From: Arenicella chitinivorans
Lineage (GTDB): Bacteria > Pseudomonadota > Gammaproteobacteria > Arenicellales > Arenicellaceae
Assembly: GCF_014651515.1 (NCBI RefSeq)
Contig: NZ_BMXA01000002.1
Coordinates: forward strand, 965,501-1,029,500
Direction: 5' to 3'
DNA: 64,000 bases
Positions 61,261 through 64,000 of this stretch are shown here, in pieces. Each line of letters opens with the position of its first letter. Positions within the stretch are counted from its first letter, which is position 1. A program made the position numbers and the translations under genes. The notes under the pieces were generated by a model. That model saw nothing but the letters and a program-made list of their open reading frames with translations. It searched no databases and had not been told where the DNA came from.

Positions 61261-62754
61261 GTGAGCGACAAAATGATTATTGCACTGGACCAAGGAACCA
61301 CCAGCTCGCGGGCAATCTTGTTTAATCATGCCGCTGAGATCGTCGGTGTTGCACAACAGGAGTTCACGCAGCATTACCCCGGCGATGCTTGGGTCGAGCA
61401 CGATGCGCAGGAAATCTGGGACACGCAATCGAGTGTATTGGCTTCGTTAATCGCGGAGCATAAATTAACCCCAGACCAGATCGCAGCAATCGGTATCACC
61501 AACCAGCGCGAAACCACGGTGGTGTGGGACAAAGCAACTGGCGAGCCAGTGTACAACGCCATCGTATGGCAAGACCGTCGCACGGCAGCGCGCTGTGATG
61601 AATTGGTTAAGTCGGGTTGGGATACGAAGATTCGCGAGAAAACCGGCTTGATTGTGGATTCGTATTTCTCGGCCACCAAGCTGGAATGGATCTTAAATAA
61701 TGTCGATGGTGCCAGAGCGCGTGCTGAGCGCGGCGAGTTGTTGTTCGGCACCATTGATACCTGGGTGATCTGGAATTTGACTGGCGGCAAAGTACATGCC
61801 ACGGATGCCAGTAACGCAGCGCGTACTATGTTGCTCAATATTGACGATGGCGATTGGGACCAGGAATTGCTCGAGTTGTTCGGTATTCCGGCGCAAATGT
61901 TGCCCGAAGTGTGCAGTAGTTCCGATGATTTTGGCAGCTATTCGCTGGAAGGTGCCGAGATCCCAATCACCGGTGTGGCTGGTGATCAGCAAGCAGCACT
62001 GTTCGGTCAAACTTGTTTTGAGCAGGGCATGGCTAAAAACACCTACGGTACTGGCTGCTTTATGCTGATGAATACCGGTGCAGAGCGAGTAGACAGTCAG
62101 CACGGTTTGTTGACGACCATCGCTTGGTCGTTGGATGGCAAAATTACCTACGCGCTGGAAGGCAGTGTGTTTATCGCCGGGGCGGCGGTGCAGTGGTTGC
62201 GTGACGAACTGCAATTCATTGAATCTGCCGAAGATTCCGAAGCCTTGGCCGAACAAGCGAACCCAGAAAGCCAGGTAGTGGTCGTTCCGGCGTTTGCTGG
62301 TTTGGGGGCACCGCATTGGGACATGTACGCCCGGGGCGCAATTTTTGGTCTGACGCGTGATTCTGGTCGAGCTGAAATTGCCAAAGCCACATTGCAATCG
62401 CTGGCGTATCAGATCTACGACGTGCTGAATGCCATGCAGCAAGACAGCGGTATTGAGCTCAGTCAGTTGAATGTCGATGGCGGCGCGATTGCCAATGATT
62501 TTTTGGCGCAATTTCAGGCCGACGTCCTGCAAAAACCGGTCATCCGGCCGAAGGTGTTGGAGTCGACAGCGCTCGGGGCTGCGTATCTCGCGGGTTTAAA
62601 GGTGGGTTACTGGACTTTCGATGATCTAAGTAAAGTCCGTGATATCGAGCGGACCTTTGACCCAAAATTAAGTAACGAAACAATTACGCGATTACTGAAA
62701 CGCTGGAACAAAGCGGTTGAGCGCGCCAAACACTGGGTTGATATCGATGAGTGA
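61261..62754 (+). CDS. glpK: Glycerol kinase
   Basis: FGGY-family kinase, 497 residues, converting glycerol to glycerol 3-phosphate. [17 protein letters not shown] at the start, [25 protein letters not shown], and [18 protein letters not shown] near the C-terminus are family-typical. The GTG start follows GGAGGCG. Neither glpF nor glpD is adjacent. The stop overlaps the slyX start. Confidence 0.97.
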
Positions 62755-62956
62755 TCAAGCTGTTCAGGACCTACAGGTTAAGGTCGCCTTTCTCGAAGAC
62801 GCACTCACTAAATTGAGTGATGAGTTTTATGCTCAGCAAAAAGAGCTGGCGGATCTAAAGTTGAAATACGCCAAAATGCTATCACGCTTGAGAGACCAGC
62901 CCGCCGAGGACGAAGGCATTGGATCAATGCCGCACGAGCGACCGCCTCACTACTAG
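62747..62956 (+). CDS. slyX: SlyX family protein
   Basis: 69-residue coiled-coil protein of unknown function. [20 protein letters not shown] and the ending RPPHY are SlyX hallmarks. It overlaps the end of glpK by 8 bases (ATGAGTGA), indicating coupled translation. Confidence 0.93.
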
Positions 62957-63094: not shown

Positions 63095-63128
63095 TTGACA
63101 TCCAGCAATATACTGTATAAATTAACAG
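63095..63128 (+). promoter_or_regulatory. recA promoter with LexA (SOS) box
   Basis: TTGACA (63095-63100), a 16-base spacer and TATAAA (63117-63122) form a strong promoter. The LexA box CTGTATAAATTAACAG (63113-63128, CTGT-N8-ACAG) covers the -10, so the repressor would block RNA polymerase. The ATG lies 46 bases further on. Confidence 0.9.
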
Positions 63129-63173: not shown

Positions 63174-64000
63174 ATGGACGACAATAAACAAAAGGCGCTG
63201 GCGGCAGCGCTGACGCAAATTGAACGGCAATATGGAAAAGGTTCCGTCATGCGTATGGGAGATTCTGGTATCGGTAAAGGGATTGAAGCAATCCCAACTG
63301 GTTCCCTAGGGTTGGATATCGCCTTAGGAATCGGTGGATTGCCCAAAGGCCGAATCGTCGAAATTTACGGCCCTGAGTCTTCGGGTAAGACGACGCTAAC
63401 TTTACAAGTGATTGCAGAAGCTCAGAAAAAAGGTGGCACCGCGGCATTTGTGGATGCAGAACATGCGTTAGACCCGCAGTACGCCGAAAAGCTTGGCGTC
63501 AATATCGAAGAATTACTGGTTTCGCAACCAGACACCGGTGAGCAAGCGCTGGAAATTACGGATATGTTGGTGCGTTCAGCTGCGGTGGATGTCATTGTTA
63601 TTGACTCGGTAGCGGCACTAACGCCAAAAGCTGAGATTGAAGGTGACATGGGTGACTCGCATATGGGATTACAGGCCCGATTGATGTCACAGGCGTTACG
63701 TAAGTTGACGGCCAATATCCAAAAAGCCAATACGTTGGTTATTTTTATTCGGTAATGCATTGAAATTCTACTCCTCAGTGCGTCTCGATATCCGCCGTAT
63801 CGGTGCCATTAAGAAAGGTGACGAAGTCTATGGTAACCAGACGCGAGTCAAGGTGGTTAAAAACAAAGTGGCACCACCATTTAAACAGACTGAGTTCGAT
63901 ATTTTGTATAACGAAGGCATTTCCAGAGAGAGTGAGCTAATCACATTGGGCGTTGAACACAATATCGTTGATAAGTCCGGTGCGTGGTATAGCTACGACG
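63174..64000 (+). pseudogene. recA: recA with internal deletion and frameshift (runs off window)
   Basis: RecA, the recombinase and SOS co-protease. Residues 1-192 are normal (Walker [10 protein letters not shown] at 66-74, [25 protein letters not shown]). The frame then ends as VIFIR-stop at 63755. In the +1 frame from 63751 the protein resumes with [16 protein letters not shown] and continues to the window edge ([10 protein letters not shown]). Compared with normal RecA, the stretch from NQIRMKIG to the TTTG before GNALK is missing: about 19 codons, 56 bases net, most of DNA-binding loop L2. As written the gene cannot make active RecA. Either a true mutation or an assembly or sequencing error; everything else in the gene looks under normal constraint. 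Confidence 0.88.

Follow-up and report, generated by a model that had tools for sequence, protein, structure and literature searches.

Mycobacterium bovis BCG Russia, a passaged strain, is a natural recA mutant in which RecA protein is reported to be absent and recombination to be exclusively illegitimate (PMC2483709). It resembles the locus examined here in that a single chromosomal recA carries a small indel with a frameshift, loop L2 is not made and the remaining gene is present. The lesion in BCG Russia, however, is a single-base insertion in the 5′ portion of the gene, verified by sequencing, whereas here 56 nt are missing and the loss is known from the assembly alone. In Calyptogena clam symbionts, recA is likewise inactivated by small indels, in some of them with most of the gene recognisable, according to the available parts of two reports (PMC3202245, PMC5310779); those symbionts have reduced intracellular genomes, whereas the present genome measures 4.03 Mb, keeps other SOS genes and shows no decay. 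Vibrio parahaemolyticus 090-96 also has a fragmented resident recA (PMC4334540), but there a second, complete recA arrived with an insert of ~30 kb, and here neither insert nor second recA was found. As a kind of event, a broken recA is already known; ours is a single assembly with no evolutionary depth. Among the matches listed from the open-licence literature, none described a free-living, non-passaged bacterium that had lost recA.

The host genome comprises 4,031,349 bases in 17 contigs (99.62% complete, 0.14% contaminated), and the window, the whole stretch of 64,000 nucleotides analysed here, corresponds to C2:965501-1029500. Within it, recA is divided into two pieces on the forward strand. 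The 5′ piece (63174..63755) matches PF00154 positions 1-185 (E 5.5e-99); it runs from an ATG at 63174 through 192 RecA codons, ending in ...NTLVIFI at 63749, and its frame closes two codons past the junction, with CGG followed by the stop TAA at 63753-63755. Walker A, Walker B and L1 presumably all lie in this piece. The 3′ piece, in the +1 frame (63751..64000, continuing to L114:1468), matches PF00154 positions 205-262 together with RecA_C (PF21096), and stays open for 139 codons from 63751, with its stop beyond the window end. PF00154 positions 186-204 are absent between the two pieces, and no single frame encodes a full-length RecA domain, the family being split over two frames. The same break is present in the whole contig, which extends 10,328 bases past the window. 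Judged by these very strong family matches, two adjoining RecA pieces in different frames are not a chance resemblance.

Comparison with relatives and alignment to E. coli RecA place the junction at 63749..63750 (+), where 56 nt of loop L2 are absent. The gap is filled by the same 19-residue stretch, NQ(I/L)RMKIGVMFGNPETTTG, in 14 of 15 recA sequences from the genus and family, the fifteenth being the divergent second RecA of one genus member (G004), which did not fit the L2 motif; a motif search for the stretch recovered it in 13 of 14 relatives' recA. Nineteen residues make 57 nt, of which one base is retained, hence the 56 nt missing. In the alignment to the solved E. coli RecA, the lost residues correspond to 193-211, with the numbering anchored on Met197 and Met202 as named in the accessible part of PMC7943192. 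Published boundaries, as given in the portions of the sources at hand, set L2 at residues 195-210 (PMC2483709) or 198-206, with models in which F203 and M202 of L2 contact DNA (PMC4666392). The loss covers these ranges, so the entire loop is gone, and the L2 DNA-binding loop expected of a RecA is lacking from the locus. The preliminary description had already proposed, from the letters of this stretch, a recA broken between 63740 and 63756, with RecA sequence in different frames on either side and about 56 bases encoding most of L2 removed. The 14 intact relatives' recA and the Pfam pieces bear out the loss and the frame change, the junction falls inside that interval, and both frames carry PF00154 matches; the size of the gap holds as well, but "most" of the loop falls short, since all of L2 is missing (193-211 against 195-210).

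Two readings of this break are nearly even, slightly favouring artefact. We put at just under an even chance that recA was ordinary until very recently: the organism would have, or would until very recently have had, an intact gene, and the 56-nt loss would be an assembly or consensus error at this spot, or a minority variant taken up by the assembly, rather than a property of the species. We infer that the break lies in the data, not in the chromosome. Somewhat short of that chance stands the reading in which the deletion is real and very recent: the clone or culture that was sequenced would have lost 56 nt by an illegitimate, RecA-independent event, and a colony bottleneck or passage would have fixed the loss. 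The result would be a recA-null cell with neither recombination nor SOS induction and the rest of the regulon still standing. Precedents for such a deletion are BCG Russia (PMC2483709) and the clam symbionts (PMC3202245), both as described in the available parts of those sources; against it stands that the loss comes from a single assembly. The alternatives posed at the outset, a genuine loss or an assembly error confined to one precise site, are the correct ones; taken overall, that earlier interpretation is partly supported.

A search of the remaining genome for another recA, which the preliminary description had called for, returned only the broken locus and one weak match. No second RecA was found in this genome with PF00154 or with the 192-residue N-half protein as query, the sole other RecA-family match being the weak one on contig C1, in a 461-aa frame that we take to be RadA-like. 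The L2-core DNA pattern, allowing up to 2 mismatches, had no match elsewhere in the genome. With the family, protein and DNA-pattern searches all negative apart from that weak match, a further recA or an L2 fragment at another place was rejected, and the absence of both favours a recent deletion. The locus has two marks of a pseudogene: a disrupted frame in a recognisable recA, and no functional second recA in the genome.

The surroundings of the gene are in order. A LexA-box-like SOS operator, CTGTATAAATTAACAG (63113..63128, +), was found by pattern match, and the recA start at 63174 lies 45 nt past its end. The pattern alone does not stand out from chance (1 match in the window against 0.67 expected); the site is, however, kept upstream of relatives' recA, with the identical 16-mer in 9 of 13 genus and family relatives and a close variant in 3 of 13, and no operator at that threshold upstream of the remaining one (G018). 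Among the genus members scanned, 9 of 10 have the identical operator. The LexA box beside recA, said in the preliminary description to be intact, is indeed so. Further upstream lie SlyX (62747..62956, +) and an FGGY-family carbohydrate kinase (61261..62754, +), the latter matching the whole family and presumably glycerol-kinase-like. On the 3′ side, recX and alaS look intact, and an aspartate-kinase-like gene is also found downstream. Elsewhere, lexA, on C6 with an operator-like site upstream, and recN, on C5, look intact too. A standalone S24 peptidase with a basic, glycine-rich N-terminus is encoded on C2 near 603 kb (L139:8251-8859, -); we take it to be UmuD-like. By eye, no UmuC-like protein adjoins it among the ORFs listed there, and the 20-kb stretch around it holds no operator-like site at the threshold used. 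The recB search gave matches below the cut-off only; the best of them, in a 1153-aa frame, scored 128 bits where 696 are required. That lexA, recN, recX, the S24 peptidase and the LexA operator are all in place speaks for an artefact. Loss of recA is also costly to a cell, which we count on the same side, a strong fitness cost being expected of a recent deletion.

Constraint on the two halves bears most directly on the age of the break. With G005, whose recA is the closest among the 14 relatives, as reference, amino-acid identity is 95.3% over the 192 codons of the N half and 95.0% over 119 aligned codons of the C half (6 differences), in keeping with conserved RecA sequence on both sides. In the C half, codon positions 1 and 2 differ by 4.6% and position 3 by 54.6%; synonymous divergence comes to 1.9 for the N half and lies beyond what can be estimated for the C half. 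Outside the variable tail there is no sign of the relaxed constraint that would follow inactivation, the C half being as conserved as the N half. Rough arithmetic, with roughly one neutral substitution assumed at each site along the branch, indicates that leaving 5% of the branch unconstrained would produce ~13 extra amino-acid changes per 119 codons, against the 6 differences seen. Over all 139 C-half residues there are 25 differences from G005, of which 14 fall on the G000 side (this genome), 8 on the G005 side and 3 were left unassigned; the N half has 9, divided into 2, 6 and 1. The excess on the G000 side of the C half (14 against 8) tells against an artefact, though the last 34 alignment columns (from column 348) account for 21 of the 25 differences; this tail is variable in all relatives, and polarisation is unreliable there because the relatives differ widely among themselves. 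Before column 348 the C half shows only 4 differences, 3 of them on the G000 side and all conservative. Since the C half is constrained like the N half, the break would be either very young or absent from the organism; from these comparisons its age would be at most a few per cent of that of the split from G005, and possibly zero. Conservation of a C half that would be untranslated if the break were real argues for an artefact, and the lack of decay outside the variable tail counts against a recent deletion.

The relatives survey covered 61 genomes including this one, with a RecA match in 56 and a match over the cut-off in 52. Of the other 17 members of the genus, 11 possess a recA covering L2, 10 of these over the whole profile; the eleventh (G017) starts at a contig start. 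In two more (G001, G016), recA is cut at a contig end before L2, one (G006) gave a weak RecA match only and three (G009, G010, G011) gave none; these six genomes are 78-88% complete. L2 is whole in all 11 genus members whose recA covers it. In a class survey of 281 genomes at least 95% complete (match threshold 1e-15), 273 matched and 8 did not. The best match by E-value was near full-length in 267 of the 273, a genome-table count in which breaks near gene ends may be missed, leaving this genome (G000), G219, G070, G074, G261 and G327. On a second look at the five weak others, recA in the last four proved to be split between contig ends, so that by best E-value and second look a frame break inside one contig was seen in this genome alone among the 273. 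A loss not common to the 11 genus members covering L2 sits poorly with a recent deletion, and their retention of the loop, together with the uniqueness of this genome in the class survey, supports an artefact. L2 as a recurrent break site was set aside, the other weak cases being contig ends or the intein-like insert of G219, with no second frame break seen. A 26-mer across the junction had no match in viral_contigs, a collection from which entries close to this genome may have been excluded.

Some observations from these surveys stand on their own. The 8 genomes of 281 without a RecA-family match at 1e-15 (G061, G182, G194, G212, G222, G243, G247, G250) include one of 0.3 Mb and several that are 97-100% complete with 20-60 contigs. 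In an order-level relative (G036), recA lies on two contig ends with an overlap of ~200 bases (G036:C12:16152 and G036:C74:2), one of the ends falling in L2. The RecA of G219 carries an in-frame intein-like insert in L2, FG|C...HN|SPETTTGG (L165:1456-3597; G219:C37:48040-49905), with a LAGLIDADG_2 domain over the cut-off and matches to splicing-domain models below their cut-offs. This insert resembles our case in that it too interrupts L2, at a point inside the missing stretch; it differs as an in-frame insertion, presumably spliced out, whereas this genome shows a loss without insertion.

The assembly itself appears sound. The 471,629 bases read, a figure that includes overlaps, contain no non-ACGT letters. 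A frame scan covering 454,328 bases (the window, 19 stretches of 20 kb and 10.3 kb past the window), to which in-frame losses are invisible, found 78 same-strand frame switches. In 69 of these an ATG, or a GTG accompanied by a ribosome-site-like stretch, lies close to the upstream stop, and they were accepted unchecked as ordinary tight gene pairs; 9, recA included, have no such start. In Pfam searches, 5 of the other 8 pairs matched different families over the cut-off on each side, and in 3 of 8 the upstream protein matched no family over its cut-off; one family split across a frame switch was seen in none of the 8. A generally poor assembly was dismissed, since recA is the one convincing frame break across the 454,328 bases scanned. 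This cleanness, around the junction and in the scanned stretches, favours a recent deletion and weighs against an artefact, as does the seamlessness of the loss, 56 nt without a seam being untypical of base-calling errors. With the L2 sequences from 14 relatives standing in for the lost bases, which are unseen, the junction shows no microhomology, and window 63600-63900 as assembled contains no direct repeat of at least 8 nt within 120 nt. Deletion by slippage was rejected on these grounds. The same result counts on both sides: it gives an assembler nothing to make it slip, and it denies a recent deletion a slippage route. When folded as a single strand, 63700-63800 is somewhat more stable than its shuffled versions (z -2.0; 5 of 200 as good), a difference to which we attach no weight.

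If the deletion were real, the mRNA would yield a 193-aa protein with the ATPase core and without L2 and the C-terminus. A RecA without L2 or the C-terminus neither carries out strand exchange nor activates LexA cleavage, which would leave the cell deficient in both recombination and the SOS response. A bolder extension, which we consider improbable, is that a natural, very recent recA-null state in a large genome with an otherwise standing SOS regulon represents the first step of loss before decay, perhaps transiently favoured by blocking SOS-driven processes, for example prophage induction; this last point is conjecture. A real deletion would offer a genome just past recA loss with its SOS genes in place, informative about what follows loss outside symbionts. 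If the break is an artefact, a near-complete, contiguous public assembly can miss the active loop of a core gene, and surveys that infer recA loss from assemblies call for caution.

A working RecA obtained by recoding (frameshift or bypass) or from two pieces is very improbable, even though the C piece reads open from the junction onward and a TTG lies 10 nt past it: the 19 L2 codons are missing from the DNA, with no L2-core match elsewhere in the genome, so translation cannot supply them and a change of frame would give at best a RecA without L2. The ATT-CGG-TAA site also seems to have no evident slippery property. Programmed bypass, raised in the preliminary description as a way out, fails for want of those 19 codons.

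An equally slight chance attaches to an old pseudogene in a lineage long without recA, of the kind met with in endosymbionts. The only copy found is indeed disrupted, but both halves look constrained, which leaves such a state unsupported; the six differences, of whatever origin, compare poorly with the ~13 extra expected, and the genome is one of 4.03 Mb with lexA, recN and recX.

The scar of an aborted intein homing, in which a LAGLIDADG endonuclease would have cut a homing site in L2 and the ends been rejoined minus 56 nt, is conjecture and scarcely credible: G219, of the same class, does have a LAGLIDADG_2 intein-like insert within the stretch lost here, but the genome has no LAGLIDADG_2 or Intein_splicing match (a weak test for Intein_splicing, the G219 insert itself being below the cut-off), and none of the 11 genus recA genes covering L2 contains such an insert. 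No inserted element, intein or intron, is present at the break, where the sequence is shorter rather than longer, and the part of PMC8529194 at hand gave no RecA intein insertion site. A separate observation concerns the genus member G004, which has, besides its normal RecA, the second divergent full-length one (L122; G004:C28:18811-19596), with 69% and 60% identity to the N and C pieces of the window, respectively.
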